A stretch of 64,000 nucleotides of DNA. It comes from Cellulophaga sp. L1A9. GTDB taxonomy: Bacteria > Bacteroidota > Bacteroidia > Flavobacteriales > Flavobacteriaceae. The stretch spans positions 434,001 to 498,000 of the forward strand of contig NZ_CP047027.1 of assembly GCF_009797025.1 (NCBI RefSeq), in the 5' to 3' direction. Below, piece after piece: positions 3,196-19,510 of this stretch (within the stretch, counting starts at the first letter, position 1; the number at the start of each line of letters is the position of its first letter). The translations under genes were made by a program, and so were the position numbers. The notes beneath the pieces are model-generated. The model made no database searches. It was given only the letters and a program-made list of their open reading frames with translations, and was not told the DNA's origin.

Positions 3196-4434
3196 ATGAC
3201 GAATCACGATTTATTGAACATAGCAAAAACCTACGGAGATCCGGTTTATGTGTATGATTCTGAAAAAATTACAGCTCAGTTCAACAGGCTTACAAATGCC
3301 TTCAGTGGAGTTAAAAAATTGAAATTAAATTACGCCGCCAAGGCTTTATCAAATATCAGCATATTAAAACTAATGAATAGCCTTGGTAGTGGGTTAGATA
3401 CCGTTTCTATTCAAGAAGTACAATTAGGACTTTTAGCAGGTTTTAAACCTGAAAATATCATTTATACACCTAATGGCGTTTCTTTAGAAGAAATTGAAGA
3501 AGCTGCAAAATTAGGCGTACGCATTAATATTGATAATCTATCTATTTTAGAACAATTCGGAAGTAAATTCCCTAAGGTCCCGGTATGTATTCGTATTAAT
3601 CCGCATGTAATGGCTGGAGGAAATGCCAACATTTCAGTAGGACATATTGATTCTAAATTCGGAATTAGCATTCATCAAATTCCACATTTATTACGTATTG
3701 TAGAACTTACACAAATGCATATCAATGGTATTCACATGCACACAGGAAGTGATATCTTAGATATCGATGTGTTCCTTTATGCTTCTGAAATACTCTTCGA
3801 AACCGCTAAGAATTTTAAAAATTTAGATTTTATTGACTTCGGTAGCGGATTTAAAGTTCCTTATAAGGATGGTGATATCGAAACAAATGTTGAGGAATTA
3901 GGAAGTAAATTAACAGAGAAATTCAACGAATTTTGTAAAGAATACGGCAAAGAATTAACCTTAGCATTTGAGCCTGGGAAATTTTTAGTGAGTGAGGCTG
4001 GGTATTTTTTAGCAAAAGTAAATGTAGTAAAACAAACGACTTCTACTGTTTTTGCTAGCATTGATTCTGGTTTTAACCACCTGATTCGTCCAATGTTATA
4101 CGGATCATACCATCAAATAGAAAATATATCTAATCCAGAAGGCAGAGAACGCTACTACTCTGTTGTGGGCTATATTTGTGAAACCGATACTTTCGCGAGT
4201 AATCGCCGTATCAATGAAATATCTGAAGGTGATATTCTTTCTTTTAAAAATGCTGGAGCATATTGTTTTACCATGGCCAGCAACTATAATAGTAGATTTA
4301 GACCCGCAGAAGTTTTATGGCATAACGGAGAAGCTGTCTTAATTCGTGAGCGCGAAACTTTAGATGACATCATCAAAAACCAAGTAGATGTGAAAAATCT
4401 TTTTTCTAAAAAAGAAAAAGCAACTGCCAAATAA
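3196..4434 (+). CDS. lysA: Diaminopimelate decarboxylase
   Basis: 412 residues, a fold-type III PLP enzyme that converts meso-diaminopimelate to L-lysine plus CO2, the last step of lysine synthesis. Seen: the PLP lysine K49 in LKLNYAAKAL; the glycine-rich phosphate loop (DFGSGFKVPY); HMHTGSD in the barrel; EPGKFLVSEAGYF, which usually reads EPGR; and the C-terminal substrate motif CETDTFAS (CESxD in most members). AGAYCFTMASNYNSRFRPAEVL is the classic C-terminal segment (split: AGAYCFTMASNYN then SRFRPAEVL). It is a single gene between its own promoter and terminator. The substitutions at CESxD and EPGR are mild, and the neighbourhood gives no sign of another substrate. Confidence 0.93.
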   Translation: MTNHDLLNIAKTYGDPVYVYDSEKITAQFNRLTNAFSGVKKLKLNYAAKALSNISILKLMNSLGSGLDTVSIQEVQLGLLAGFKPENIIYTPNGVSLEEIEEAAKLGVRINIDNLSILEQFGSKFPKVPVCIRINPHVMAGGNANISVGHIDSKFGISIHQIPHLLRIVELTQMHINGIHMHTGSDILDIDVFLYASEILFETAKNFKNLDFIDFGSGFKVPYKDGDIETNVEELGSKLTEKFNEFCKEYGKELTLAFEPGKFLVSEAGYFLAKVNVVKQTTSTVFASIDSGFNHLIRPMLYGSYHQIENISNPEGRERYYSVVGYICETDTFASNRRINEISEGDILSFKNAGAYCFTMASNYNSRFRPAEVLWHNGEAVLIRERETLDDIIKNQVDVKNLFSKKEKATAK

Positions 4435-4456
4435 TAAAATAGTATACTACGTATTT

Positions 4457-4488
4457 AAAAAAATCCTGCAATGCAGGATTTTTTTTGT
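4457..4488 (+). terminator. Terminator of lysA
   Basis: Stem TCCTGC/GCAGGA extended by A/T runs, 3-nt loop, followed by eight T. Confidence 0.88.
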
Positions 4489-4580
4489 TTTACATTGTTT
4501 TACTATTTCCTAAAAATAAAATAGAAATTAAAACGTTATTTTTATACAAGTTTAGAGACTAAACAATCAAATAGCACAAA

Positions 4581-5096
4581 ATGAAATCATTCTTATACAC
4601 TTTCTTTATCGTTAGCATGCTAAATATATTTACCACAAATGCTCAAGAAGTTACATGGTTATCCTGGGAAGAAGCTGCTAAACTAGCCGAAACAGATAAA
4701 AATCCGAAGAAAATATTTATAGACGTATACACCGATTGGTGTGGATGGTGTAAAAAAATGGATAAAGATACTTTTCAAGATGCTACAGTAGCCGCCTATA
4801 TGGAAAAAAACTTCTATATGGTGAAACTAGATGGTGAAGGAAAAGAGCCCATAGAATTTAAAGGAAAAACTTTTAAGTTTATTCCATCCGGTAGAAATGG
4901 CTACCACGAATTTGCCGCTGCTTTAATGCAGGGTAAATTAAGCTACCCGACGACCATATTTCTTGATGAAAAAATGAATATGCTCTCTCCTATTCCAGGA
5001 TATCAAAAGGCGGAACCTTTTTTAAATATTGCGAAGTATTTTGGAGATAATATCTATAAAGAAAAAGATTGGAAAGCCTATTCCGAAGGAAAATAA
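4581..5096 (+). CDS. Secreted thioredoxin-fold protein
   Basis: 171 residues. Signal peptide of about 21 residues (MKSFLYTFFIVSMLNIFTTNA) cleaved before QEVTW, so periplasmic. The thioredoxin fold carries the redox motif DWCGWCKKMD (C54 and C57) and a cis-Pro loop SYPTTIFLD. The CGWC motif and following KKMD resemble the DUF255/thioredoxin-like Bacteroidetes family that reduces or isomerises disulfides in exported proteins. The partner is not evident from the neighbours. It has no lipobox. The next gene, a sulfurtransferase, is convergent, with its stop only 5 nt away. Confidence 0.85.
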   Translation: MKSFLYTFFIVSMLNIFTTNAQEVTWLSWEEAAKLAETDKNPKKIFIDVYTDWCGWCKKMDKDTFQDATVAAYMEKNFYMVKLDGEGKEPIEFKGKTFKFIPSGRNGYHEFAAALMQGKLSYPTTIFLDEKMNMLSPIPGYQKAEPFLNIAKYFGDNIYKEKDWKAYSEGK

Positions 5097-5101
5097 AAAT
5101 A

Positions 5102-5914
5102 TTAATTTACTTTTTGAGCCCATTCTGTCCATGATCCATCATAGACAGAATTTTTTTTATCCAACACTAAAGTGCTTGCTAGTAAAACAATACAAGCGGT
5201 AACACCTGAGCCACAACTAAAAATCAACGATCTATCCTCCTTTTTAACGGACTCAAAAATTGGTTCTAGTGCTATTTTAGATTTAAATTTTCCATGATCA
5301 ATAACGGTAGTGTATGGAATATTGACCGAATTAGGAATACTCCCACTACGTAAATCTTTTCGTGGCTCCAATTCAGTACCATTAAAGCGCCCTTGAGAAC
5401 GCGCATCAATCAATAAAGCATTACCCGTCTCAGAATTCGCGAATACAGTTTCAAAATTAACAACGCAGTCTTGTTGTAACATTGCTTTGAAATTACCAAC
5501 TACAATGGGTCTAACGAGACTCTTTTCAATAGGGTAATTGCACTCCTTCCAACTAGGTAATCCTCCATCAAGAACTGCTACATTTTCATGCCCCATTGCT
5601 TTAAACATCCACCAAACCCTTGGACTCCAATAAACCCCTAAAGTATCATAAACAACAACTTTACTAGAAGTATTAATTCCTAGTTTCTGACATTCTTTTT
5701 CAAATTGCACAGCACTGGGCAGCATATTAGGCAACGTACTTTCGCTATCCGAAAAATCGTTTTTTAAATCAAAAAGCCGCGCTCCAACAATATGATCTTG
5801 ATCTGAATCTATCTTTGAGCCAGAAGCATTCATTACGGCACTAGCCTCCAAAATAACTACATCCGTATCCTTTAAATGATTCTTTAACCAAGCACCAGTA
5901 ACTAATGAGTCCAT
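5102..5914 (-). CDS. Sulfurtransferase (3-mercaptopyruvate/thiosulfate type, tandem rhodanese)
   Basis: 270 residues, two rhodanese domains. Domain 1 (about 1-130) is the inactive structural copy. Domain 2 (about 155-270) holds C234 in the loop CGSGVTAC. The six-residue CGSGVT loop is the signature of 3-mercaptopyruvate sulfurtransferases (SseA) rather than thiosulfate rhodaneses (CRKGVT). Other family pieces: SPRVWWMFKAMGHENVAVLD followed by GGLPSW, LIDARSQGRFNG and GSIPNSVNIPY. It transfers sulfane sulfur to thiols or cyanide in the cytosol. The gene lies downstream of guaB on the same strand, but the guaB terminator separates them. Confidence 0.88.
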   Translation of the reverse strand: MDSLVTGAWLKNHLKDTDVVILEASAVMNASGSKIDSDQDHIVGARLFDLKNDFSDSESTLPNMLPSAVQFEKECQKLGINTSSKVVVYDTLGVYWSPRVWWMFKAMGHENVAVLDGGLPSWKECNYPIEKSLVRPIVVGNFKAMLQQDCVVNFETVFANSETGNALLIDARSQGRFNGTELEPRKDLRSGSIPNSVNIPYTTVIDHGKFKSKIALEPIFESVKKEDRSLIFSCGSGVTACIVLLASTLVLDKKNSVYDGSWTEWAQKVN

Positions 5915-5933
5915 AATAATTAAATTTTAGTCA

Positions 5934-5966
5934 TAAAAAAAGAGATAACTAAGTTACCTCTTTTTC
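5934..5966 (-). terminator. Terminator of guaB
   Basis: Hairpin with a 12-bp stem (AAAGAGATAACT region against AGTTACCTCTTT, one G-U pair) and a T-run on the minus strand, between guaB and the sulfurtransferase gene. Confidence 0.8.
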
Positions 5967-5988
5967 TATACATTTTTTAAAGCTTGAC

Positions 5989-7461
5989 TTACCTACTATA
6001 ATTAGGAGATTCTTTTGTGATGGTTACATCATGTGGGTGACTTTCGTTAATACCACTAGCTGTAATTTTCACAAATCGTCCAGTATCCTGGAGAGTCGCA
6101 ATATCTTTAGCGCCGCAATAGCCCATCCCTGCTTTAAGTCCACCAATAAATTGATGAATACTTTCAAACAAATCGCCTTTATACGGGACACGTCCCACAA
6201 TACCTTCTGGAACTAATTTTTTAATATCATCTTCTACATCTTGGAAATAACGGTCTTTTGAACCTTGTTTCATTGCCTCAACAGAACCCATTCCGCGATA
6301 AGATTTGAATTTTCTTCCTTCATATATGATCGTTTCTCCTGGAGATTCTTTTGTACCTGCCAAAAGCGAACCTAACATCACTGTATCTGCTCCAGCCGCA
6401 ATAGCCTTAGGAATATCACCTGTATATCGGATTCCTCCATCTGCTATCACAGGAACACCACTACCCTTAATCGCAGCAGCTACTTCTAATACTGCAGAAA
6501 ATTGAGGAAAACCAACTCCTGCAACTATTCGTGTTGTACAAATAGAGCCTGGACCAATACCTACTTTTACAGCATCTGCACCAGCTTCTACCAAATATTT
6601 AGCTGCAGCTCCCGTAGCTATATTCCCTACGATAACATCTAAATCTGGGAATTTTGCTTTTACTTGCTTTAAAACCTCAACTACCCCTCTGGTATGTCCA
6701 TGTGCAGTATCAATCACCACAGCATCAACACCCGCATTTACCAATGCTTCTGCTCTTTCTACTGCATCAGCAGTGACTCCTAAAGCAGCAGCTACTCGCA
6801 AGCGACCATATTGATCTTTGTTTGCGATAGGCTTTTGAGTAAGCTTCGTAATATCTCTAAAGGTTATTAAACCAACTAGCTTATAGTCTTTATCTACAAC
6901 AGGAAGTTTTTCAATTTTATTTTCTTGTAAAATATCTTCAGCCTGTTCTAGTGAAGTGCCTTCTGCAACTGTCACTAAGTTTTTAGTCGTCATCACCTCA
7001 GAAATAGGGCGATCATTATTTTTTTCAAATCGTAAATCACGATTGGTAACAATACCTATTAATTTACCATCACCATCAACAATAGGAATACCACCTATTC
7101 CATATTCTTTCATGTTAGCTTTAGCATCACGAACAAATGAATTTAATGGCAAGGTTACCGGATCTATAATCATTCCGCTTTCTGCCCTTTTCACTTTACG
7201 AACCTTCATTGCTTGTTGTTCGATAGTCATGTTTTTGTGCAAAACACCAATACCACCTTCTTGAGCCATAGCAATTGCCATTTTGGACTCAGTAACCGTA
7301 TCCATAGCTGCTGAAACTATTGGAACATTAATGGTTATGTTACGTGTAAATTTTGCTTGTATATTTACTTCTCTTGGAAGTACTTCAGAATAAGCTGGGA
7401 CTAAGAGTACGTCATCGTAAGTGAGACCTTCTCCAACTATTTTATCAAGATGTGCTTGCAT
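5989..7461 (-). CDS. guaB: Inosine-5'-monophosphate dehydrogenase
   Basis: 490 residues, the usual length. Oxidises IMP to XMP with NAD, the first committed step of GMP synthesis. Seen: N-terminal barrel start [20 protein letters not shown]; a pair of CBS domains (about 95-205, with [17 protein letters not shown] and [17 protein letters not shown]) that sense purine nucleotides; catalytic loop [15 protein letters not shown] with C308; [20 protein letters not shown]; and the mobile flap YRGMGS. The short C-terminal part ends [16 protein letters not shown]. It is monocistronic, with a probable -7 element at 7485-7492, and divergent from the imelysin operon. Confidence 0.97.
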
Positions 7462-7484
7462 GGCAATTAAAGATTAATTGCGTG

Positions 7485-7492
7485 CAAATATA
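7485..7492 (-). promoter_or_regulatory. Probable -7 element of guaB
   Basis: Minus-strand TATATTTG matches TAnnTTTG and lies 24 nt before the ATG. A CAAA at 7515-7518 (22-nt spacer) is a weak -33 candidate. Confidence 0.5.
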
Positions 7493-7685
7493 CGATTAAT
7501 ATTAATTAAAGGCGCAAACGGATTATAATCTTTACAGTAAGCTTTGTTTTTATAAGAAGATCAACAAACATGTTCACGAATCAAACCGACTTGTAAACAC
7601 CTATGGTAATAACAATCTGTACAATCGTTTAAATAGCTACCCTTCGCACCCCCCAACAACAGTCAGAATTAAAAATTTTAACACT

Positions 7686-7710
7686 ATTATTTAAATTTAG
7701 TCTAAATAAA
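7686..7710 (+). promoter_or_regulatory. Putative operator of the imelysin-DUF1111-imelysin operon
   Basis: Palindrome TTATTTA-N9-TAAATAA (7687-7693 and 7703-7709), with an inner perfect dyad ATTTAG-T-CTAAAT (7695-7707). It sits 25 nt upstream of the -7 element, just outside the expected -33 position. A second copy, 21 of 25 bases identical in promoter orientation, lies at 17836-17860 before the opposing operon. The regulator is unknown; an iron-responsive Fur- or DtxR-type protein is the natural guess from gene content. Confidence 0.65.
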
Positions 7711-7735
7711 CTTAGGATATAATTATTCCATGTAA

Positions 7736-7743
7736 TAAGTTTG
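7736..7743 (+). promoter_or_regulatory. Probable -7 element of the imelysin operon
   Basis: TAAGTTTG fits TAnnTTTG and lies 24 nt before the ATG at 7768. The expected -33 position (about 7713-7716) has a poor match, as in promoters that need an activator or are tightly controlled. Confidence 0.55.
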
Positions 7744-7767
7744 TGATTTAATTAACGAAAAGATTCC

Positions 7768-8973
7768 ATGAAAAAATTTCTAGTATTATTGCCTTTCTCT
7801 TTCTTCGTATTTGCATGCTCAAATGACGATGAAAACAATTCATCAAGCAACGATGAAATTACTGCTGCTTCTGTTGTTGAAAATTACGCGAACTTAGTGT
7901 ACGAATCATATTCCGACAGCTATGATGCTGCTGTACTCATGCAGACTGCTATCACCACATTTACAGAAACACCTACAGAAGACAATTTTACTGCAGCCAA
8001 AGATGCTTGGTTGAGTGCTAGAGAATATTATGGGCAAACGGAAGCCTATAGAGAAACTAACGGACCTATTGACACCGAAGGAGAATCTTGGTCTATTGGG
8101 AATGAAGGACAAATGAATGCATGGCCAATTGATGAAAGTTATATTGATTATGTCTTAACAGGAACAGAATCTTACGCTGGTGATTACAATAGTATTATTG
8201 GTGATGAAACCTATTCCATTACAGAAGAAGCTTTAGCTGGCTCAAATGAAGGTGTTGATGATAAATCTATAAGCACGGGATGGCATGCTATTGAGTTTTT
8301 ACTTTGGGGCCAAGATAATACTGCTCCTGCTGAAGATTTGCCAGGGCAACGTTCTTACACAGACTATACTATTGCTGAAAATGCTGATCGTAGAGCTCAA
8401 TATTTAACTGTTGTCACAAACCTTTTAGTAAACGACTTAAATGATTTAGTTAGCACTTGGAATGAAGGTGGCACCTATAGAACTGTATTTGAAGCACTAG
8501 ATACTGACACAGCATTACAACAAGCTATTAACGGTGCTTTTTTTATTGCTGGAGACGAATTAAGCTCTGAGCGTATGATTGCCCCAGTTGATTCAACAGA
8601 TGGTATTGATGCTTCAGGTCAAGAAGACGAGCACTCTTGTTTTTCTGATAATACACAACGCGATGTTTACGCAAACGCACAGGGTGTACTAAACGTAATT
8701 TATGGCTCTTACAGCACAATAAATGGCGCTTCATTTATTGATTTAGTAAAACAAACTGATCCGGCGCAAGCAGCTACACTTGAAGCTGCCGCAAGTCTCG
8801 TGGCCACTAGAGCCGCCCTTATTGGTGATAATGCACAACCGTTTGATTACTTAATTACTCAAGAAACATCAGATAGTACAGATGGTCCTGTAATGCAATG
8901 TGTTGTTGCTTTATTTGATTTAGCTAATGAAATTAGTGCTTCAGCATCCGTATTAGGAATAAATCTTAACTAA
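7768..8973 (+). CDS. Imelysin family (peptidase M75 / IrpA-like) lipoprotein, copy 1
   Basis: 401 residues. Lipobox FVFAC with C17, followed by an Asn/Asp/Ser-rich linker, so a lipoprotein. The helical imelysin fold is indicated by NYANLVYESYSDSY, AKDAWLSAREYYGQTEAYR and GWHAIEFLLWGQD, which contains the family GxHxxE motif (G171, H173, E176). It also has FIAGDELSSERM. Imelysin proteins (IrpA, EfeO M75 domain, algp7) are periplasmic metal-binding proteins tied to iron uptake; peptidase activity is doubtful. It is first in an operon with a di-heme cytochrome and a second imelysin, and is the only one of the three copies here with an intact motif. Confidence 0.9.
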   Translation: MKKFLVLLPFSFFVFACSNDDENNSSSNDEITAASVVENYANLVYESYSDSYDAAVLMQTAITTFTETPTEDNFTAAKDAWLSAREYYGQTEAYRETNGPIDTEGESWSIGNEGQMNAWPIDESYIDYVLTGTESYAGDYNSIIGDETYSITEEALAGSNEGVDDKSISTGWHAIEFLLWGQDNTAPAEDLPGQRSYTDYTIAENADRRAQYLTVVTNLLVNDLNDLVSTWNEGGTYRTVFEALDTDTALQQAINGAFFIAGDELSSERMIAPVDSTDGIDASGQEDEHSCFSDNTQRDVYANAQGVLNVIYGSYSTINGASFIDLVKQTDPAQAATLEAAASLVATRAALIGDNAQPFDYLITQETSDSTDGPVMQCVVALFDLANEISASASVLGINLN

Positions 8974-9002
8974 ATACACTTTAGGATTATTCTAAGGTAG
9001 TA

Positions 9003-9036
9003 AAAAGTCCCGGAATTTTTATTTCGGGACTTTTAC
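9003..9036 (+). terminator. Hairpin terminator between imelysin and DUF1111 genes
   Basis: 10-bp stem (9003-9012 with 9025-9034, GTCCCG/CGGGAC core), 12-nt loop and only a short T-run. It lies between co-directional genes 93 bp apart. It is probably a partial terminator or 3'-end stabiliser that lowers expression of the downstream genes. Confidence 0.7.
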
Positions 9037-9066
9037 CATAGTGTTATTTACTAAAAATCAATCAAT

Positions 9067-10467
9067 TTGAAAAAACATATTACATTCATTTTCCTTATAG
9101 CTTTGAGCCTTTTCTCCTGTACTACAGAAGACGATAACTACATCACCTTTGAAGACTTATATGAAGAAGGAGAAGAATTTTTAACCGGTGAATTAGGTGT
9201 AAATAGCACCAGCGCCAATGCGTTTGGATTTGAAGTAGACGGCCTCACTTTTACGGAAATTGGAGCTTTTTCTACGGGAAATTCATTATTCAATCAAAAC
9301 TGGGTATCTGCACCCGCGTCAACAACAGCCAGAGACGGATTAGGACCAACATTTAATGCGCGTTCCTGCGCCGGGTGCCACTTTAAAGATGGTAGAGGAA
9401 GCCCCTTAGTTAATGGAGAAGATTCTAGTGGTTTTTTAATGCGAATAAGTTTACCTGGTCAAGATTTATTTGGAAATGCGAATCCTGTAGCGGGTTACAA
9501 CACACAAATACAAGATAGAGCTAATAACGGTGTGGACTATGAAGCTAAGGTGAATGTCACTTATGAAATACTAAATGGCGCATATCCTGACGGGAATACC
9601 TATGAGTTACAAAAACCAATATATTCATTTTCTGATGAGAAATTTGGTAGTTTGGAGGGCATATTAACCTCACCACGAGTAGCACAACAAACCATAGGAC
9701 TTGGTTTTGTAAATGCCTTACCTGATGATCAAATATTACAATTTGTAGATGAATTTGATGCTGATGGGGATGGAATTTCAGGAAAAGCAAATTATGTTTG
9801 GAACGTCGAAGAAAACACAACCACACTTGGTAAATATGGATGGAAAGCTAATGCTCCAAGCTTAAAGCAACAAATAGCTGGTGCTTTTCACGGAGATATG
9901 GGTCTTACCAGTTCCCTATTCACCGAGCAAGAATGTCCTTCCCCACAACAAGATTGTGCTGATGCTGTAAATGGGGGTGAACCCGAAATAACAGATTCGC
10001 AATTAGAAAAAGTAGTATTCTACCAAGCAACTTTAGCAGTGCCTAATAGAAGAAACTATGAGGATTTATCGGTATTAAAAGGGAAAGCGAATTTTACTGA
10101 AATAAACTGTATTGGTTGTCACCGCATCAATCAAACCACTGGAATTTCTGAAATAGCCGCTGTTTTAAACAATATTACCATAAAACCATATTCTGACTTT
10201 CTACTGCACGATATGGGAGCGGAGTTAGCAGACAATAGACCAGATTTTTTAGCTAGTGGCAGTGAATGGCGTACGCAACCACTATGGGGTATTGGTTTAA
10301 TTTCTACTGTAAATAACCATACCTTCTTCTTACATGACGGTCGTGCAAGAACTATTGAAGAAGCTATTCTGTGGCATGGCGGTGAAGCAGAAAATAGTAA
10401 AAATGCTTTTAAAGAATTATCTCAAGAAAAAAGACAACAAATTATAGATTTTGTAAACTCACTCTAA
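9067..10467 (+). CDS. DUF1111 di-heme cytochrome c lipoprotein (thiol oxidoreductase-like, IrpB-type)
   Basis: 466 residues, starting at TTG (no ATG occurs near the signal peptide). Lipobox LFSC with C18. Two CxxCH heme-c sites: SCAGCHFKDGRGSP, near residue 103, and NCIGCHRINQ, near residue 352. Other family pieces are GLGPTFNARSC, DADGDGISGKANYVWN, GRFGWKA-like GKYGWKANAPSLKQQIAGAF, LWGIGL and FFLHDGRARTIEEAILWHGG. DUF1111 proteins resemble MauG/cytochrome c peroxidases and are repeatedly found beside imelysins, where a redox step in iron uptake is assumed, not proven. The gene is tightly coupled (3 nt) to the next imelysin gene. Confidence 0.88.
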   Translation: MKKHITFIFLIALSLFSCTTEDDNYITFEDLYEEGEEFLTGELGVNSTSANAFGFEVDGLTFTEIGAFSTGNSLFNQNWVSAPASTTARDGLGPTFNARSCAGCHFKDGRGSPLVNGEDSSGFLMRISLPGQDLFGNANPVAGYNTQIQDRANNGVDYEAKVNVTYEILNGAYPDGNTYELQKPIYSFSDEKFGSLEGILTSPRVAQQTIGLGFVNALPDDQILQFVDEFDADGDGISGKANYVWNVEENTTTLGKYGWKANAPSLKQQIAGAFHGDMGLTSSLFTEQECPSPQQDCADAVNGGEPEITDSQLEKVVFYQATLAVPNRRNYEDLSVLKGKANFTEINCIGCHRINQTTGISEIAAVLNNITIKPYSDFLLHDMGAELADNRPDFLASGSEWRTQPLWGIGLISTVNNHTFFLHDGRARTIEEAILWHGGEAENSKNAFKELSQEKRQQIIDFVNSL

Positions 10468-10470
10468 ATC

Positions 10471-11556
10471 ATGAAAAAAATAATCTTCAGCCTTATAACT
10501 CTCACTATTATCTTGATCTTAGGTTGTGACAATGATGATACTACTAGCGCGTCTGATTTTGACGTTAACCTAATGTTTAGCGATTTAGCGCACAACAATA
10601 TTCTACCAACTATTGCTAATTTTGTGACCGAAGCCAACGCCTTACAAGCAGCAGCAAGCAAGTACACTAATGCTACTACAGAAGCTAATTTGGAAAGTCT
10701 AAGACAGCAATGGAAGCTTACAGCTATTGTTTACGAGAAAACGTACACCTACAATATTGGTAGTGCCAAAGATCAGTTTGTACATAACTCTATTTATAAC
10801 TGGCCTACCGTACCAAGATCTGTGGAATATTTTATAACAGAAAATAATACTATTGACGAGGCATTAATGTTAACCATAAGTCCACAAGTAAAATCTTTAG
10901 CCGCCTTAGAATATTTATTATTTGCAGACGATTTAGTAACCACTAACGCTGCTTTTCTAGCTTCCGAAAAACGTAGAGATTATTTAAGATTATCAAGCAC
11001 CTATGTAACTTCTCGTGCAAATTTATTGTTTAGTATTTGGGATAGTAGCGGAGAAAATTACACGAGTACATTCCTTGAAAATAGTGGTAGCGGCATTTCT
11101 AGCTCTTTAAATTTATATTACAACGGCCTTTACAATACTATTGATGTTACTAAAACCACCAAAGTTGGGAAACCTGCTGGGTTAGAAAAATCAGACCTAG
11201 TAAACCCAGAACTAGCACAAGCATTTTACAGCAATACCTCTTTATCAATTATTGAAGCAAATATAAAAACTGTGGAATTGGCCTACTTTGGATCTACTAA
11301 CACTCTTGCGCTAGATGACTATGTACTCTCTATCAGCAAAAATGCCACTTTAAATACTACCATTCAAGCTAAATTTACCGAAATATACAACGCAATTGAT
11401 GCTATTCCTGTTCCGTTAGACGAGGCCGTAACTAGCAACCACACCGAAGTTGAAATCCTACATACAAAATTGAATGAGCTACAGGTTTTATTTGCCGTAG
11501 ATGTACAAAGTATTTTATCTATAATTATTACTACAACAGATACTGACGGGGACTAA
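10471..11556 (+). CDS. Imelysin family lipoprotein, copy 2 (His of GxHxxE lost)
   Basis: 361 residues. Lipobox LILGC with C19 and an acidic DNDD sorting stretch. The imelysin fold is supported by LRQQWKLTAIVYEKTYTYNI, QFVHNSIYNWPTVPRSVEYF and VKSLAALEYLLFADD. The last is the equivalent of GxHAIEFLLW, but the His is replaced by Ala (A144) while the Glu (E147) stays. KVGKPAGLEKSDLVNPELAQ then AFYSNTSLS is the C-terminal repeat region. It begins 3 nt after the DUF1111 stop, so it is in the same operon. Its 3' end overlaps the convergent TonB-receptor gene by 4 bp. Probably a partner or structural variant of copy 1 rather than an equivalent metal binder. Confidence 0.82.
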   Translation: MKKIIFSLITLTIILILGCDNDDTTSASDFDVNLMFSDLAHNNILPTIANFVTEANALQAAASKYTNATTEANLESLRQQWKLTAIVYEKTYTYNIGSAKDQFVHNSIYNWPTVPRSVEYFITENNTIDEALMLTISPQVKSLAALEYLLFADDLVTTNAAFLASEKRRDYLRLSSTYVTSRANLLFSIWDSSGENYTSTFLENSGSGISSSLNLYYNGLYNTIDVTKTTKVGKPAGLEKSDLVNPELAQAFYSNTSLSIIEANIKTVELAYFGSTNTLALDDYVLSISKNATLNTTIQAKFTEIYNAIDAIPVPLDEAVTSNHTEVEILHTKLNELQVLFAVDVQSILSIIITTTDTDGD

Positions 11557-14000
11557 AATTTAAACTGTAACGTAGTATAAAATGTTCTTGGCTGGGAAGG
11601 CAATATACCAGGCCCTGGATACCCTGTAGCTCTACGGGTAAAATAACTATTATCTAAAAGGTTATTTACCCCTGTCTCTAATTTGAAATATTTATAAGCG
11701 TAAGACAATGAAAAATCTAAGATATCATACGCCGGTATCTCACCGACGATACCACTTTGACTATCAAAATCTCTTGGAGAATTGGTGGCATCTGTAAATT
11801 GACTACCTAAATACGTATACTGTAAACTCCCCAATAGGTCTTTATATCCAAAATTCAACCCGGTTTTGATATTATAATCAGGAATAAACTCTACTTTATT
11901 TCCTTCTACGTTGTTAGCTCCAGATGAAATATACTCGCTACCTGTAAATGCCATATTTACAAATACATTCAGCTTACCATTTTTGTTACTTGATAGTACT
12001 TCCCACAGATTGAAATCTAAAAAACTTTCAAAACCATAAGTTACCGCATCTCCAATATTTCCTCTAAACTGTTCTTGCTGAATATCACTAACTTCCCGTA
12101 AAACAACCCCTATACGATTGTCATAACGCAGTAAAAAAGCCCCTACATCATAAGAAAGCACATCTCCTAACCTTCCTCTTGCTCCCAAATCAAAAGTATA
12201 GCCACTTTCATCTGAAATATTAGGATCTACAACTAAAGACGGATTATTAATACGAATATCATTGAACGTAACCGATCTAAAATTTTGGCTAAAATTACCA
12301 TACAATTCTACACCATTAAAAGGCTTATAACTTACCCCTACCCCTAGTAACACAAATTGACGTGAAAAATCTCTATTATCTGGCACCTCAATATTTAGAA
12401 TTGGGTTACCTGCATTATCCAAGTTTATTTGCTTGTATGCTCCCTGACTCTCTGTTTTTATATATTCAAAACGAGCACCTGGCGTAATGGATAGATTATC
12501 TTTTATATTAAAAATGTTTTCAGCAAAGAGTGCTAAATTAAGGTTCGGAAATTCAAAATCGCTCTGCCTAGAATAATCGGGATATTCATCATCAGCAAAA
12601 CCAAAATCGGCATCTGCTCCATTTGTCCCTGGCCCCTGACGTTCCGAATTCTTAGACTGATAGTATTTAGAACCCAATAAAAACACATGATCTCCATCTA
12701 GTAAATTGTAGCGAGTTAACACTCTTGCTTCTGCTCCCCAGTTATTAAAATTACCGACGATAAGCTCTCTTGGCGCTGTTATATCATCTTCTTGAGAAAC
12801 TCTATTTTCTCTAAAACCTACCGATTTTCTAAAAGCATCTAAGGCAAATAAGTTAAGACTGAAATCTGTTTTATTTGAAAAGGAATGATCTAATCTCACG
12901 GAATATAATTTCCAATCTACATTAAACCAATTTCTTGTTCTATTGCTAAAAGTTGGATCATCTTCAAATTGCTGATCTGTTAGACCACCAGGCTGATGCG
13001 CCAAATAATTTAAATAACTAAACTCAAAGGTTAGTTTGGTTTTATCTGAAAAATTATGATTTACATGCAAATAGCCGTTATACGAATCAAATTCTGAATT
13101 TGGCCGAAAGCCATCTCCTGTTTTAAAATTATAAAAGGCATAATACTGTGTTTTACCCACCGTTCCTCCAAGACTATTAAAGCTGGTGAATAAATTATTA
13201 GAGCCCAATGTTTGTCTCGAAATCCACTCTATTTCTTTATCAGGGTTGGGTTGCTTCATCTTAAAATTAATAAGCCCCCCAAATTGAGTTCCGTATTGTA
13301 AAGATGCTGCCCCTCTAACCACTTCTATTTGAGCTACAGCTTCTGCCGGTGGCGTATAATAACTCTCAGGATATCCCAAAACATCTGCAGAAATATCATA
13401 TCCATTTTGCCTTGTATTAAAGTTAGATGTACGGTTTGGGTCTAAGCCTCTACCTCCTATATTAAGCTGCAAACCAGCATCACTATTATCGTATATATTT
13501 AAACCAACTACCTGCGCATATAATTGCCTAGCAGTACCACTAGCAAGATTTGCTGTTAAATTTTCTACCAATACAACCTCACTTTTTTTACCTTCATAAA
13601 TTGCAGTACCTTCTACTGCTTTTAATTTATTTAAGGCGAAAATCTTTTCTTTTCTAGCCACCAAAACGACTTCTGATAATTGCTCTCCAAGCGTTTCTAA
13701 TGCGATATCTAAAGAAGTATTACCAGCAACTTCAATAGTTTGTTCTGATATGCTGTATTCAAATGAAAAAACAACAACTTTATAGGTTCCTGGCTTCACA
13801 GCACTGAATTGGAAAGTTCCGTCAGATGCACTAACAACTTTCTTTGATAACTCATAGATGTATACCTCTGCCTCTGCTACAGGTGCATTAGTTTCTGCGC
13901 TAGTGATTGTTCCTGAAATGGTAAATTGCGCCTGCGCTGAAGCGGTAAATAGTAAAAAAATTACCCCTATAATTGTTTTAAAGTCCTTTAATATCATCAT
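11553..14000 (-). CDS. TonB-dependent outer-membrane receptor, Fe-dicitrate/siderophore type
   Basis: About 815 residues from the ATG at 14000; the open frame extends to a TTG at 14030. Order: signal peptide (MMILKDFKTIIGVIFLLFTA then SAQAQ), CarboxypepD_reg-like domain (about 20-105, FTISGTITSAETNAPVAEAE), plug (VLVENLTANLASGTARQLYA, LNIGGRGLDPNRTSNFNTRQ, VAQIEVVRGAASLQYGTQFG) and a 22-strand barrel ending FYTTLQFKF. The closest named group is FecA-like ferric citrate/siderophore receptors. It is last gene of the leftward operon; its start overlaps the HTTM gene end by 23 nt, indicating translational coupling. It would import the ligand whose metal the periplasmic lipoproteins then handle. 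Confidence 0.9.
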   Translation of the reverse strand: MMILKDFKTIIGVIFLLFTASAQAQFTISGTITSAETNAPVAEAEVYIYELSKKVVSASDGTFQFSAVKPGTYKVVVFSFEYSISEQTIEVAGNTSLDIALETLGEQLSEVVLVARKEKIFALNKLKAVEGTAIYEGKKSEVVLVENLTANLASGTARQLYAQVVGLNIYDNSDAGLQLNIGGRGLDPNRTSNFNTRQNGYDISADVLGYPESYYTPPAEAVAQIEVVRGAASLQYGTQFGGLINFKMKQPNPDKEIEWISRQTLGSNNLFTSFNSLGGTVGKTQYYAFYNFKTGDGFRPNSEFDSYNGYLHVNHNFSDKTKLTFEFSYLNYLAHQPGGLTDQQFEDDPTFSNRTRNWFNVDWKLYSVRLDHSFSNKTDFSLNLFALDAFRKSVGFRENRVSQEDDITAPRELIVGNFNNWGAEARVLTRYNLLDGDHVFLLGSKYYQSKNSERQGPGTNGADADFGFADDEYPDYSRQSDFEFPNLNLALFAENIFNIKDNLSITPGARFEYIKTESQGAYKQINLDNAGNPILNIEVPDNRDFSRQFVLLGVGVSYKPFNGVELYGNFSQNFRSVTFNDIRINNPSLVVDPNISDESGYTFDLGARGRLGDVLSYDVGAFLLRYDNRIGVVLREVSDIQQEQFRGNIGDAVTYGFESFLDFNLWEVLSSNKNGKLNVFVNMAFTGSEYISSGANNVEGNKVEFIPDYNIKTGLNFGYKDLLGSLQYTYLGSQFTDATNSPRDFDSQSGIVGEIPAYDILDFSLSYAYKYFKLETGVNNLLDNSYFTRRATGYPGPGILPSQPRTFYTTLQFKF

Positions 14001-15330
14001 TAAAATTAAGTATCCATTTTTTTGGCGCAAAAGAATCTTTTTCCTTTGCTAAATCTACTTTTGGGTCTACATAAGGCTGACTCAATCTTCCGTTTATAGC
14101 CACATAGCTTTCTACATACACTTCTATACTCTTTGAACCATTCTCTGAAAAATGATCTGCCAAATAATGCGCATATTGCAACATAAAATCAGGCTGCGTA
14201 CTCATTTGCTTTTCCTGAAACGAGGTTAAAAAATCATTGTTATCAATTAAGAACGATTTTCCATTACTGCTATCAACAACCTTAAATTGTGCATAGCCTG
14301 CTTTTTCCATCAACATAACTCGCCATGAAAAACGATACCCTTCCTCTGTCCAGAAAAGCTCATTTTCATAAAGCAAATAACGCCATGGCAAAAGTAATTG
14401 TATTAAAAGAAATAGGCCTATTATTAGTAGTGGAATTTTACGGGGAGAACGTTGCGCCACTACCGAATTCTTTAACGGTTTTAATTTCAATAGCTTCGAA
14501 GCTTTATGGATTAATTTCTCATGAAAATCACTATCAAAAAAAATTAAAGCGCTTACAATCATCACAAAAGGAAATACACCTATAGGGAACAAAATTCTTG
14601 TAAGCACATGAAAAACTACCACCATAAAGAAACCAAACCAACGGGTGGGTTTGTATAGTAATAGAAATGGAATTGTCAAATCATAAAGGGCTCCTCCCCA
14701 ACTAAAGGCGTAATGAACCCATCCTTTTTGCAGTAAACTCCCTAAGATCGGAAGATCATAATTAGAAGGCAACCATATTTTAAGCGGCATAGCATCTACC
14801 AACCAATCACTATTTAATTTAGCCAAACCTGCATAAAAATATACGATAAATAACATCACCTTTATGCAATCCACATTCCATTTTGGGATATATTCTTGAT
14901 TTAATGAGTTGTCTAGATAAGCATCTAAAGAAAATCTTCTATTTGCAGGTAAAAATAACAATAGAAAACTAAGGCAACTTACAAAATAATAATGGTTAAG
15001 ATATGTGGTCTTATCCATCAATTCAATATACGTAAAGCATAAAAAAAAGATGATAATACTGTACCTGTATTTATACCCTATTGCAATAAGAAATGAACTT
15101 ATCAAACAAATGATGAATAAAGCATAGGTGTATATACCTAATGGCTTTATCCATTCAAAACCATAATAAGAAAAGAAAAATTTAGGCTGAATATATAATT
15201 TATCTACCCAACCGTAACTCAGAAACCTAAGGGTACTAAAAAACATCATTATTCCGAAAAAAACACGAAAGACCGCAAAATTAGCGGCCTTAGTTTCTTT
15301 ACGGAAATAAGTATTGAAATACGCTTCCAT
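13978..15330 (-). CDS. HTTM-domain membrane protein, vitamin K-dependent gamma-carboxylase homologue
   Basis: 450 residues with about eight to nine hydrophobic segments in the first 330, then a soluble C-terminal part. The HTTM domain is clear: RVFFGIMMFFSTLRFLSYGW, YLNHYYFVSCLSFLL, FIVYFYAGLAKLNSDWL, WVHYAFSWGG and LFPIGVFPFVMI. From memory, these align with human GGCX (NNHSYLYGLL, YFIAGVKKLDADW, FSIGMFSYVM). On that alignment H113 and K171 fall on the GGCX catalytic His160 and Lys218. Flavobacteria make menaquinone, a usable vitamin K. The protein substrate is unknown. The ATG shares one base with the stop of the upstream imelysin gene (TAATG). Confidence 0.82.
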   Translation of the reverse strand: MEAYFNTYFRKETKAANFAVFRVFFGIMMFFSTLRFLSYGWVDKLYIQPKFFFSYYGFEWIKPLGIYTYALFIICLISSFLIAIGYKYRYSIIIFFLCFTYIELMDKTTYLNHYYFVSCLSFLLLFLPANRRFSLDAYLDNSLNQEYIPKWNVDCIKVMLFIVYFYAGLAKLNSDWLVDAMPLKIWLPSNYDLPILGSLLQKGWVHYAFSWGGALYDLTIPFLLLYKPTRWFGFFMVVVFHVLTRILFPIGVFPFVMIVSALIFFDSDFHEKLIHKASKLLKLKPLKNSVVAQRSPRKIPLLIIGLFLLIQLLLPWRYLLYENELFWTEEGYRFSWRVMLMEKAGYAQFKVVDSSNGKSFLIDNNDFLTSFQEKQMSTQPDFMLQYAHYLADHFSENGSKSIEVYVESYVAINGRLSQPYVDPKVDLAKEKDSFAPKKWILNFNDDIKGL

Positions 15331-16460
15331 TAGTCTCCGTCTGCATCAATAAAATCGACATTAATACTTAAGGCTTGAAGCATATCAACCTTAAGTAAAA
15401 TTACATTACGTTGTAATTCATCATAAGTTTCCGTCATTTTAGAATTATCCGTAGTCACTTGAAGCGCTAAGTCATTCCCTAATTCCTCTGCTTTCGTTTT
15501 AGAAATCTCAAACTGATTGTTAATAAGCGTACTTAAGTCATCTCCATTCTTGATGGTATTTAAAAAATCTAAATATGCTTTTAGGCTTTCCCCTTCTGAA
15601 GCTGTTGTAAAACTTTTTCCATTAAAAAAGTCCTGAGACGCTGTGATTGCAGCAAGCAGTAATTCTTTTCCTATTTCTTTACTATATAGTGCTTCTACTT
15701 TTTCTGGTAATGGATCTACAGAGAATACACCTGCTGGAATTCCAATCTTACCTGCTCTCAACGATTTTTCATAGTAGAATAGAAAATCATTGACCAACTT
15801 ATCTACAGAACCAGTTGCCGAAGAACTCGTACCCGCCACAAAAGTAGCTCTATAACTACCTTGCCAATCATTTAAAACTGTAGTTGACAGCTCTAAAACA
15901 GTATTAGTAAGTTCATTTAAATAGCCGTTATATCCTGTAGCAGTAGATTCTGAATTATAAAAAGCTACTATTTCTGCATCTGTAGCTGCCAAACCATTAA
16001 TTAGGTAATCAATTGCTGGAAAACCTTGTATCGCTATATTTGAAGGCAATGAAAAATTATACGTATTATTACTTATATTTTCCTCAATGCTTGTTACATC
16101 CGTTGGATACACATTTAAACGATTTCTAAAGTTTAACTCCTCTGCTTTCCCAATCTCAAACATGGAAACACTTTGAAAAGATACATAAGCATCTTTCCAT
16201 GCGCTACGTAAATTTTCTAGATTTTCTTCTGATGGAGTTTCCGTAAATACAGAAGAAGCTTGTACCATTACAGAAACGTCTGTATTAAAAGCGGTATATG
16301 CCGGAATAATAATATTATCTGCCCAATTTATAAGCATTGCACTGCGGTTGAAATTATCATCGCTCTCTTCCGAAGTACCTCCTCCATTATCACTTGTTGA
16401 ACAAGCAAAAACAATTAAACTCAAAAGGATAATAAATCCCCAAACCTTTGTTCTTTTCAT
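15330..16460 (-). CDS. Imelysin family lipoprotein, copy 3 (motif degenerate)
   Basis: 376 residues from the ATG at 16460; a TTG at 16478 would add six residues before the signal peptide and is less likely. Lipobox VFAC followed by STSDNGGG. Imelysin features: LRSAWKDAYVSFQSVSMFEI, LNVYPTDVTSIEENI and IQGFPAIDYLIN at the GxHxxE position, where His is Pro and Glu is Asp. KIGIPAGVFSVDPLPEKVEA is the second-half signature. It is second in the leftward operon, after the DUF4856 gene, and its stop overlaps the HTTM start. It is likely a surface or periplasmic component of the same uptake system; the loss of motif residues argues against the same metal-site chemistry as copy 1. Confidence 0.82.
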   Translation of the reverse strand: MKRTKVWGFIILLSLIVFACSTSDNGGGTSEESDDNFNRSAMLINWADNIIIPAYTAFNTDVSVMVQASSVFTETPSEENLENLRSAWKDAYVSFQSVSMFEIGKAEELNFRNRLNVYPTDVTSIEENISNNTYNFSLPSNIAIQGFPAIDYLINGLAATDAEIVAFYNSESTATGYNGYLNELTNTVLELSTTVLNDWQGSYRATFVAGTSSSATGSVDKLVNDFLFYYEKSLRAGKIGIPAGVFSVDPLPEKVEALYSKEIGKELLLAAITASQDFFNGKSFTTASEGESLKAYLDFLNTIKNGDDLSTLINNQFEISKTKAEELGNDLALQVTTDNSKMTETYDELQRNVILLKVDMLQALSINVDFIDADGD

Positions 16461-16477
16461 ACTAACTTTTTTCAACA

Positions 16478-16509
16478 ACCAAGCCTTATCGTATTAAATA
16501 AGGCTTGGT
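16478..16509 (-). other. Intercistronic hairpin between DUF4856 and imelysin genes
   Basis: Perfect 11-bp inverted repeat (ACCAAGCCTTA at 16478-16488, its complement at 16499-16509) with a 10-nt loop and no T-run. It may act as an mRNA-processing or stabilising element after the first gene of the operon. Confidence 0.55.
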
Positions 16510-16533
16510 AATTTATATATTTTCTAATAAAAT

Positions 16534-17760
16534 TTATTCAATACTAGCTGCTTGAGCTACTGTAAAATCAAACTCCGCAGCAATAGCTTCTGAAATATTT
16601 TCTATAGTATCAGCTTCTAAATCCCAAAGACCATTCTCACCATCTCCAGTAAGTTGCGAAAGTAACCCGTCTACTTCTGTCTTAATAAAGTAAGCATCGT
16701 TTGTTCCTGGCTTTCTTGTAAATCTAAGGCTATAAATAAATCCATAAGCTTCAGATAATGCGTGGAAAGAACCTGTTACTTCTTCATTCTCAATTTTAGT
16801 TTTTGCTTGCTGTAGGTAATAAATTCCTCTAACAGCAATTACTTTAGAAATATTCTCACGGATTATTTCTGCTTGTTCATCACGAACATCATAATCTTTA
16901 GCCACAATAGCTGCTCTACCTAATTTAAAAGCTTCAAAAATATCTGCTGCAATGGTTGAGAAATCTGTATCATCATTAACACGACCTGTATATTCGTTTA
17001 AAAACTTATCATCCTCACCAATTGTTAAGTTAGGATTTTCTGTGTTCTCAGAAGTACCATAAATGTACCCATAAGCTTCATCCCACTTATGCTCCATAGA
17101 GGTATATGTCTTTCCTTCTTCTAAAACATCATTATCATTATTAGCACGGTTACTCTCTGCGTCTAAAACAGAAGTACTTAAGTAATTATTTAAGATTTGA
17201 TCTACCATTAATGCTCCTAATAATGATTTTGCAAACATTTGATTGTATTCCAATCCTTGAGCATTGACATATCTTGTAGAAGTACCATCTGCTATTTGAC
17301 CTGCAACACCTGCAGCAGCAAGAACATTTTCATTAGGGAATACTTCATTGATTTGGCCCTCTATATACCCTGCAAATTCTCCTTTAATAATTGCAGCTTC
17401 TGTAGTATTTGCCGCAAAAAAGTCTGAAGAAGCAGCCACTTTACTCTCAATACTTTTATCAGAACTGTTCAAATCATCCTCTGAAAAATCAACTGCACCT
17501 TCTACATGAGCAAACATAGCTTTTATAGAAGCCTCTGTTGCGGTCTCAAAAGCTTTAAAGGCATCCGTAGTTTCTCCCGCCATTAAGATCCTTGTTGTCT
17601 GTCCGTCAAAACTCACTGTAGAAACGCCATCTCTTTCAAAGGTGTACAAAGTAGGGTTTGTAATATCCGCACCGTTATCTACAGAATCATTGTCATCATC
17701 ATTATTACAAGAAACGAATAACATAGTTGCACAAAGTGGCAATAAAAATAATTTTTTCAT
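16534..17760 (-). CDS. DUF4856 family lipoprotein
   Basis: 408 residues from the ATG at 17760 (the open frame begins two codons earlier at TTG). Lipobox LFVSC with an acidic NNDDDNDS sorting stretch. The domain starts YTFERDGVSTVSFDGQTTRI (split: YTFERDGVSTVSF then DGQTTRI) and is mostly helical. It contains EHKWDEAYGYIYG, EAFKLGRAAI and FHALSEAYGFIYSLRF. DUF4856 proteins are Bacteroidetes lipoproteins of unknown function that, to my knowledge, often sit next to imelysin genes. The repeated EAYG(Y/F)IY segments (around residues 230 and 340) suggest an internal duplication. It is first gene of the leftward operon, behind a near-consensus promoter and the shared operator. Confidence 0.78.
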   Translation of the reverse strand: MKKLFLLPLCATMLFVSCNNDDDNDSVDNGADITNPTLYTFERDGVSTVSFDGQTTRILMAGETTDAFKAFETATEASIKAMFAHVEGAVDFSEDDLNSSDKSIESKVAASSDFFAANTTEAAIIKGEFAGYIEGQINEVFPNENVLAAAGVAGQIADGTSTRYVNAQGLEYNQMFAKSLLGALMVDQILNNYLSTSVLDAESNRANNDNDVLEEGKTYTSMEHKWDEAYGYIYGTSENTENPNLTIGEDDKFLNEYTGRVNDDTDFSTIAADIFEAFKLGRAAIVAKDYDVRDEQAEIIRENISKVIAVRGIYYLQQAKTKIENEEVTGSFHALSEAYGFIYSLRFTRKPGTNDAYFIKTEVDGLLSQLTGDGENGLWDLEADTIENISEAIAAEFDFTVAQAASIE

Positions 17761-17803
17761 AGTCAATGTTTATTAAGATTTAATATAAATAAACTTTCGG
17801 CTG

Positions 17804-17834
17804 CAAATATATTATCAAAAATGGACTTGACAAA
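17804..17834 (-). promoter_or_regulatory. Promoter of the DUF4856-imelysin-HTTM-receptor operon
   Basis: On the minus strand TTTG (17834-17831), exactly 19 nt, then TATATTTG (17811-17804). This is a full match to the Bacteroidetes housekeeping promoter. The ATG lies 43 nt downstream. Confidence 0.75.
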
Positions 17835-17835
17835 T

Positions 17836-17860
17836 TTTATTTATATTAAATCTAAATAAA
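17836..17860 (-). promoter_or_regulatory. Putative operator of the leftward lipoprotein operon
   Basis: TTTATTTA-N9-TAAATAAA palindrome (8-bp arms, 17836-17843 and 17853-17860), one base away from the -33 box. It matches the 7686-7710 element at 21 of 25 positions in promoter orientation, with 24 nt to the -7 element against 25 nt there. Confidence 0.65.
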
Positions 17861-19424: not shown

Positions 19425-19510
19425 GCCTAAAATTTAAAATAATGCTAAATATACCCTAAAAAGGCAAAACATTTAAGTCATATTATCCTATCTTACCTAA
19501 AAGATTTTTT

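Follow-up and report, generated by a model that had tools for sequence, protein, structure and literature searches.

Gene content and conservation of the locus

The locus described here, a putative iron-acquisition locus, lies at positions 7686-17860 of a 64,000-nucleotide stretch of the Cellulophaga sp. L1A9 genome (contig NZ_CP047027.1, positions 434,001 to 498,000; the whole stretch is called the window), and consists of two operons that face each other. An earlier note on this DNA had named seven genes in two facing operons, and open reading frame calls together with Pfam and NCBIfam profile searches bore out their positions, strands and families. The features are as follows.

7686-7710, no strand: operator-like palindrome of 25 bp, ATTATTTAAATTTAGTCTAAATAAA, 57 bp upstream of ImA; score 25.2
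7768-8973, plus strand: ImA, lipoprotein imelysin of the ICMP/LruB type (PF09375), with GxHxxE as GWHAIE (residue 171)
9067-10467, plus strand: DHOR, di-haem oxidoreductase lipoprotein with a TTG start (PF06537, 318 bits; CxxCH at residues 101 and 348)
10471-11556, plus strand: ImB, second imelysin (PF09375), full-length ImC homologue, His of GxHxxE absent, tail DTDGD
11553-14030, minus strand: TonB-dependent receptor (TBDR) of siderophore type, with TonB barrel and plug (TIGR01783, 145 bits, under the cut-off of 223.5)
13978-15330, minus strand: HTTM/VKGC membrane protein of the GGCX family (PF05090, 269 bits; PF22777, 204 bits)
15330-16478, minus strand: ImC, imelysin resembling the IPPA family (PF09375), with GFPAID replacing GxHxxE and tail DADGD
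16534-17766, minus strand: DUF4856 lipoprotein (PF16148, 489 bits); mainly helical model with a mean predicted local distance difference test (pLDDT) score of 91
17769-17793, no strand: operator-like palindrome, the second in the minus-strand arm, 2 bp upstream of the DUF4856 start as called; score 23.0
17836-17860, no strand: operator-like palindrome, the first in the minus-strand arm, 69 bp upstream of DUF4856; score 28.0, the best in the window, with 1 mismatch to the consensus

The 4-bp overlap of the two arms at 11553-11556, also claimed earlier, holds, as CTAA is common to the stop codons of ImB (TAA) and the receptor (TAG). In the minus-strand arm, HTTM shares 1 bp with ImC and 53 bp with the longest receptor frame, which are overlaps of a kind usual for a single predicted transcript. 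The outer limits drawn in the earlier note, 7686 and 17860, are the outer edges of two of the 25-bp palindromes (7686-7710 and 17836-17860), and that note overlooked the operator itself, the GGCX-type active site of the HTTM protein and the imelysin tail. None of the seven locus proteins matched the FTR1/EfeU permease family in the Pfam search.

Three imelysins of two kinds are present. ImA has an M75 domain (206 bits) and the GWHAIE form of the motif that marks ICMP/LruB imelysins, and it scores 174.7 bits against the LruB model, under the cut-off of 850. In ImB and ImC, the His of GxHxxE is replaced (SLAALE at 142 and GFPAID at 152), and compared with the GxxxxE pattern of IPPA/PA4372, ImB has Ser for Gly and ImC has Asp for Glu. 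ImB and ImC are homologous over their full length (hhalign probability 100), and a fold search with ImC returned IPPA (3pf0) as the third match (E 6.0e-8), after 4ecg and 7xrx.

Conservation of the gene order was examined around DUF4856, which is present in 37 of 100 surveyed genomes (the window's genome included), and around HTTM. A total of 116 loci was used, of which 36 were chosen by DUF4856 (all listed matches except that of the window itself and a partial one in G094) and 80 were the best among the listed HTTM matches from a named-genome scan with an HTTM alignment. Relatives of Zobellia or Aquimarina are represented in the named set. The order DUF4856-imelysin-HTTM-receptor was complete in 107 of the 116 loci. 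It was complete in 32 of the 36 DUF4856-chosen loci, the exceptions being L040, L057 and L065, which have no HTTM, and L069, a solitary second DUF4856 copy. All four genes were present in 75 of the best 80 listed HTTM-chosen loci, where the exceptions include L090 and L128, on short contigs, and L124, without a DUF4856 match. Such a conserved order indicates that the arrangement is not a matter of chance. In a wider sample of the phylum, the VKGC lumenal domain was found in 46 of 198 genomes at 53 listed places. When 40 of these listed contexts were examined, picked to include diverged ones, imelysin-HTTM-receptor was found in 27, with DUF4856 weak or undetected in some; 12 of the remaining 13 hold a diverged HTTM paralogue, and one (L207) holds an operon-type HTTM with neither partner.

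The plus-strand arm has the gene order of PA4370-4372 and LruB operons, namely imelysin, DUF1111 di-haem protein and imelysin. In 7 of the 116 loci (L042, L045, L049, L058, L059, L104 and L124), ImA-DHOR-ImB converges on the receptor, and two Flavobacterium loci (L137 and L147) carry ImA, or ImA and DHOR, on the opposite side. A DHOR match was found in 10 of the 37 DUF4856 genomes and in none of the other 27, and DUF4856 and DHOR were found together in 6 of the 10 genomes holding both. By gene order, the locus is made of two separable modules, and their pairing is a recurrent yet uncommon union, since it is convergent in 7/116 loci and since the two are together in 6/10 DHOR-bearing DUF4856 genomes. 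The check set beforehand, whether the neighbourhood is conserved in relatives, was thus answered in two ways: the minus-strand arm is conserved, but the convergent pairing is uncommon and most DUF4856 genomes lack DHOR. Likewise, the idea of a single locus can be kept in so far as both arms carry the same operator-like site, but it has to be recast as a union of two modules.

Operator-like sites and iron response in relatives

To find sites common to these operons, a de novo palindrome-constrained motif search was performed on 106 non-redundant regions among the 113 upstream of DUF4856, and a width-25 motif, TTTATTTAgAtTaAaTcTAAATAAA, was obtained with a log-likelihood of 1140. The shuffle control was run at width 21 only, where the real set reached 658 (60 starts) versus 46-63 in three shuffled sets (40 starts each). 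A score of at least 12 was reached in 106/113 DUF4856-upstream regions, which were the training set, and in all nine regions before ImA, which were outside it, and 3.4% of random 220-bp stretches from the same loci, true sites included, reached that score. No region before HTTM (0/113), the receptor (0/113) or DHOR (0/8) did so, and 34 of 113 regions before ImC did. When ImA-DHOR loci lie away from DUF4856, the site precedes ImA in four of five (L263-L266) and is absent from L268.

In the window, the three top scores (28.0, 25.2 and 23.0) belong to the sites at either end of this locus, followed by 11.9 and 2.5. The 25-bp consensus is matched at up to 3 mismatches five times in the 5.07-Mb genome of the window, and a reversed control pattern is not matched at all. 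Three of the five sites are at this locus, one precedes a myxochelin-type receptor, and one is inside a long reading frame and is likely a chance match. The only other intergenic site (L224, ~1501-1525; G000:C1:3032544) stands about 40 bp before a TonB receptor that resembles MxcH, the myxochelin receptor (231.7 bits, under the cut-off of 925, on partial sequence). The operator core differs by 3 mismatches from the published Riemerella anatipestifer 19-bp Fur box. When the window was scanned with the Riemerella box, 0/100 shuffles reached the real count, and 4/100 did so with a degenerate 19-bp pattern. Two matches to the FUR family (92.5 and 28.7 bits) were found in the genome, whose Fur is at C1:3209600, and we infer that Fur is the protein acting at the 25-bp sites. 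Both arms appear to begin under one operator-like site, which supports their joint control. The fourth-best site of the window (11.9) is at 34138-34162 and does not precede any reading frame of at least 120 residues, and a two-mismatch match to the Riemerella box at 19432-19450 is flanked by a LysE-like and a Dabb-domain gene.

Published expression data on relatives also point to iron. In Riemerella anatipestifer, Table 4 of PMC5609570 gives RAYM_09779-09794 as a TonB receptor, a VKGC protein, an imelysin lipoprotein and a hypothetical protein, with iron-limitation ratios of 2.11, 2.64, 3.07 and 2.41, respectively, and the genes are listed there as putative Fur-regulated genes (PMC5609570). 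This set is like the minus-strand arm, with the same gene names and the same order by locus tag, and it differs in that it consists of table rows without a mechanism; the likeness is one of annotation, not sequence, and the DUF4856 identity of the hypothetical protein is taken from its position. The plus-strand arm has the gene types and order of Pseudomonas PA4370-4372 and of the Leptospira lruB-di-haem-imelysin operon, which are iron-regulated and, in Leptospira, have a receptor gene nearby (PMC3143127, PMC7567364, PMC13066512). In the accessible parts of these papers, PA4370-4373 are described as Fur-regulated (PMC3143127) and the Leptospira LruB-di-haem-imelysin genes respond to iron limitation and dipyridyl (PMC7567364, PMC13066512). 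Unlike those operons, the ICMP-DUF1111-imelysin arm here is convergent with a DUF4856-imelysin-HTTM-receptor operon and has an operator-like site in common with it; this site is the basis here for putative iron regulation of the plus-strand arm. Because the operator core resembles the Riemerella Fur box and the genes of relatives rise under iron limitation, iron acquisition is well supported, and we consider it highly probable as the role of the locus. The link to iron and the joint control of the arms, which the earlier note had proposed, are therefore supported by the common operator-like site and by the published iron responses in Riemerella and Leptospira. Each arm is thus already known in kind from iron regulation, and the Riemerella table contains the minus-strand arm.

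Several observations weigh against this reading, mostly against a role of Fur alone. In the Riemerella fur mutant, the iron-limitation ratios of RAYM_09779-09794 were 2.70, 2.77, 2.92 and 3.07, and deletion of fur in the presence of iron raised the genes only 1.90-, 1.39-, 1.93- and 1.36-fold (PMC5609570). Since iron still regulates these genes without fur, the regulation may not be by Fur alone. The genes are also not in the list of Fur boxes in that paper, where gel shifts covered four other promoters (PMC5609570). The accessible text of an RNA-seq paper on another Riemerella strain does not contain the words carboxylase or vitamin K and neither confirms nor denies the response. In addition, matches to the 17-bp core of the operator with one mismatch are no commoner in the genome than those to the control (71 versus 99), and its use as a genome-wide regulon finder was rejected; because the core shows no excess over the control, the evidence rests on the 25-bp motif.

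HTTM protein, imelysin tail and lipoproteins

The HTTM protein has the domains of the GGCX family, HTTM transmembrane and VKGC lumenal, the latter (PF22777) being nearly full-length (positions 3-151 of 152). It aligns to residues 53-502 of human GGCX (E 1.9e-46), with 31% identity over 427 aligned positions. Its key residues are K171 (human K218), N112 and H113 (N159 and H160), W176, F240, F248, F253, S335 and M339. Among the human GGCX positions that were looked up, which do not cover the whole alignment, K154, N159, H160, V210, A214, K218, D222, W223, V255, G258, G259, F286, H287, F294, F299, T391, Y395, S398, W399, M402, D442, Q446 and R476 are kept. In the human enzyme, K218 is the catalytic base, N159 and H160 belong to the Glu pocket, and Y425 binds the propeptide, among the roles given in the accessible part of PMC12589487. 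In operon-type proteins, N112, H113, K171, W176, G213, F240, F248, F253, S335 and M339 are kept in 32 or 33 of 33, the exception for N, H and K being one N-terminally cut frame; Y332 is F in 6/33, and G212 varies. When the diverged HTTM paralogues are included, N, H, K and W are kept in 41/41 sequences. Because the catalytic lysine and most quinone-pocket residues are conserved, the quinone and lysine chemistry of the protein is probably alive. Compared with human GGCX (PDB 9wfn and others; PMC12589487), the HTTM protein is alike in the HTTM and lumenal domains, the catalytic lysine, most of the quinone pocket and part of the Glu pocket, and it differs in that it has 450 residues, leaves K217 and the disulfide cysteines unmatched, ends after the lumenal core and belongs to a genome without VKOR.

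The second imelysin type carries a near-invariant acidic end. D-x-DGD ends the protein in 111 of 113 ImC proteins of the loci and in 7/7 ImB proteins, and in 0/8 ImA proteins. The two ImC exceptions are L109, which ends DGDND, and L062, a frame that ends early. The same end was found in all 120 listed database relatives of ImC (120 listed of 3674), and in the phylum sample 27/27 ImC proteins end with DGD, with D or S two places earlier. In the ImC model this tail is of low confidence, with a mean pLDDT of 67 for residues 371-380 and 44 for the last two, and the Psychrobacter IPPA sequence (3pf0) ends TDGD; the corresponding end is disordered in the IPPA crystal, and the term DGD is absent from the text of the crystal paper. 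Such an end, acidic, near-invariant and apparently flexible, points to a role in docking or metal handling. The imelysins next to other DHOR genes (L267, L269 and L270) have no DGD tail, and in L268 (9746-10838) a DGD-tailed imelysin gene is apparently split over two frames.

HTTM is absent from the locus or has other partners in a few genomes. The DISPLACEMENT lead concerns the three genomes, among the 37 with DUF4856, whose locus carries no HTTM; G019 and G033 have no VKGC match, and G050 has one on another contig. In L065, a fatty-acid-hydroxylase family protein (PF04116; 9749-10699, minus strand), which weakly resembles an ornithine lipid hydroxylase model, takes the place of HTTM between imelysin and receptor. 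Relatives of this hydroxylase (E 1e-20 or better) occur in exactly the three HTTM-less-locus genomes among the 37. The chance of such an exact match with random labels is 1 in 7770, in a pattern noticed post hoc and with kinship ignored. The hydroxylase gene is within the operon only in L065; it is nearby on the opposite strand in G019 and on another contig in G050. A relative is also found in G083, and weakly in G049, both without DUF4856. Operator-like sites precede two of these genes as follows, and the G083 gene (L277) has a weak upstream score of 8.7.

L278, 3943-4890, minus strand: hydroxylase gene with an upstream operator-like site of 21.6, on the far side of which lies a ferritin-like gene
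L276, 7897-8865, minus strand: hydroxylase gene with an upstream operator-like site of 13.0

In L266 (G035, 4290-9474), a genome without DUF4856, ImA, DHOR, a DGD-tailed imelysin and HTTM stand in a row; one operator-like site lies immediately upstream of the called ImA frame and another immediately within it, and the true start of ImA is probably further downstream. With this row and the core module, HTTM accompanies DGD-tailed imelysins in two arrangements. In the HTTM-less G019 locus, a haem-binding domain protein (PF14376; L057, 7495-7935) directly follows the receptor.

Lipoprotein signals were recognized by eye in ImA, DHOR, ImB, ImC and DUF4856. At least two acidic residues directly follow the lipid cysteine in four of these five window proteins, and window ImC has only one. 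When the proteins of the loci were screened with a loose lipobox rule and acidic residues were counted at +2 to +6, at least two were found in 97/101 DUF4856 proteins, 55/75 ImC, 9/9 ImA, 7/7 DHOR and 4/4 ImB, and in 38/135 other frames; the rule wrongly matched 43 HMGL, LysE and receptor frames, 0 of them acidic. Acidic signals of this kind export Bacteroidetes lipoproteins to the surface (PMC5080379), and the locus lipoproteins are likely located there. Because acidic residues follow the lipid cysteine as in surface-export signals, capture is more likely to take place outside, before the receptor. The order put forward in the earlier note, receptor import followed by lipoprotein capture, is thus not supported.

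Interpretation and alternatives

Taken as a whole, the explanation that we regard as probable is an iron-starvation-induced, two-module outer-membrane iron-acquisition locus under one Fur-type operator, including a proposed modification by the HTTM protein. The core module comprises the DUF4856 lipoprotein, the DGD-tailed imelysin, the GGCX-family inner-membrane enzyme and the siderophore-type TonB receptor. Its lipoproteins are most likely at the cell surface, where they would bind iron, as the ferric ion or as a ferric chelate, and pass this cargo to the receptor. The second module, with the ICMP/LruB-type imelysin, the di-haem protein and a second DGD-tailed imelysin, most likely takes care of the redox chemistry that goes with capture. 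Using menaquinol and O2, the HTTM enzyme would modify carboxylate side chains of a locus lipoprotein, the imelysin being the first choice, during inner-membrane crossing, and a better iron ligand would be produced. Similar divisions of labour can be found in known systems. In Bacteroides XusAB, a surface lipoprotein passes a ferric chelate to a TonB transporter under iron starvation (PMC13142918); this is a functional likeness without a claim of membership, as the lipoproteins here belong to other families by annotation and a GGCX-family enzyme is added. EfeUOB likewise has an imelysin-fold protein with a haem protein partner (PMC3143127, PMC9174327), and differs in its FTR1/EfeU permease, in place of which an outer-membrane receptor is present here.

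The least secure part is the HTTM reaction, and we regard it as doubtful that a protein of the locus is carboxylated. The following points weigh against the explanation given above. Human K217 is changed to A (A170), N158 to L, M401 to V, H404 to M and Y425 to L (L361); the C99-C450 disulfide pair is unmatched (C99 to F, F53; C450 to Y, Y389); and nothing is matched after human residue 502, so the domains beyond the lumenal core are absent. D220 to N, V254 to W, N290 to T and Y379 to W are further changes, as is R436 to Q, where the alignment is uncertain. No VKOR (PF07884) match was found in the window genome (G000), so any epoxide would need another fate. The DGD tail as a mark of an HTTM substrate was also weakened as a candidate, because it is present where HTTM is absent (L057 and L065; the VKGC-less genomes G019 and G033) and in Psychrobacter 3pf0. 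In thermofluor assays described in the accessible part of PMC3143127, IPPA and PIBO showed no specific ferric ion or haem binding. Finally, the Roseivirga loci L097 and L102 carry DUF4856 and HTTM with no adjoining imelysin or receptor. It is quite possible, though somewhat short of an even chance, that the locus serves iron uptake with an HTTM protein that does not carboxylate and instead serves the receptor or the di-haem protein, either structurally or as a redox or oxygen-consuming enzyme dependent on quinol. The missing VKOR for epoxide recycling, the missing parts of the human substrate exosite and the hydroxylase-family protein, presumably another membrane enzyme that uses O2, in exactly the three genomes without an operon HTTM agree with such a role; a hydroxylase in the stead of HTTM means that carboxylation as such may be dispensable. 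Against it, the operon type and the paralogues alike retain quinone-pocket residues together with N159 and H160 of the Glu pocket. An unlikely, more specific version of the carboxylation reading would have a menaquinol-dependent GGCX-family enzyme add carboxylates to an iron-uptake lipoprotein, perhaps at the flexible DxDGD tail of the imelysin or at a conserved Glu, and thereby let it hold ferric iron, with the hydroxylase substituting in a few lineages by making an alternative ligand, for example a hydroxylated side chain.

As for the cargo, copper, zinc, manganese, haem or another metal or cofactor, with only an indirect iron response, is improbable. In vitro, the M75 protein EfeM has a preference for copper, iron and zinc (PMC9174327), and the siderophore-model match of the receptor is under its cut-off, but the Riemerella response, the closeness of the operator core to a published Fur box, the operator before the myxochelin-type receptor and the dipyridyl response of LruB-type genes all argue for iron. 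Slightly less improbable, and still quite unlikely, is an accidental tail-to-tail meeting of two unrelated operons. The uncommon pairing and the occurrence of either arm without the other would fit an accident; against it stand the operator-like site common to both arms, the 6 of 10 genomes in which DUF4856 and DHOR are together, and L266, where HTTM is joined to the other arm. Under the preferred reading, that of a two-module iron-acquisition locus, conserved gene order, an operator-like site of iron type and the response to iron published for the same gene set tie a GGCX homologue to iron acquisition; DUF4856 and DGD-tailed imelysins are placed in one physiological system; and defined partner proteins become candidate substrates, which makes bacterial GGCX function directly testable.

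What is new here, as far as sequences go, is the GGCX-type active site in HTTM, the hydroxylase in the three HTTM-less-locus genomes and the near-invariant DxDGD tail. To our knowledge, bacterial vitamin K carboxylase relatives have no settled function, and if the carboxylation reading is true, protein carboxylation would be a step in nutrient uptake and the first physiological role we know of for a bacterial vitamin K carboxylase homologue. Among open-licence PMC papers, we found none pairing imelysin with HTTM, none on DUF4856 and none on imelysin with sterol desaturase, which is a weak negative, and no published account in them of why a vitamin K carboxylase homologue sits in an iron operon.

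Some further candidates and observations concern single components. DUF4856 was considered as a hidden imelysin and the idea set aside, as profile comparison matched only the signal-peptide region and fold matches were only weak; a match to a FEA1-related lipoprotein was too weak for a claim (NCBIfam, 23.4 bits versus a cut-off of 250), and sequence search found no solved DUF4856 relative. In Bizionia argentinensis JUB59, genes for an imelysin-like protein and for a TonB receptor are lower in an mliR mutant, according to the accessible part of PMC9478572. The locus of this strain (L145) bears the four-gene arm and may include the mliR-affected genes. In L064 (9797-10645), the HTTM gene is apparently split over two frames. 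A second HTTM/VKGC paralogue of the window genome (L180, 8264-9574; G000:C1 around 2322766) has kept its active-site residues. It was rejected as a substrate clue, since its neighbours look housekeeping and it has no upstream site (best 8.8, at the 3' end). These neighbours are presumably ribF-like and serS-like genes, and similar neighbours surround the paralogue in several relatives.

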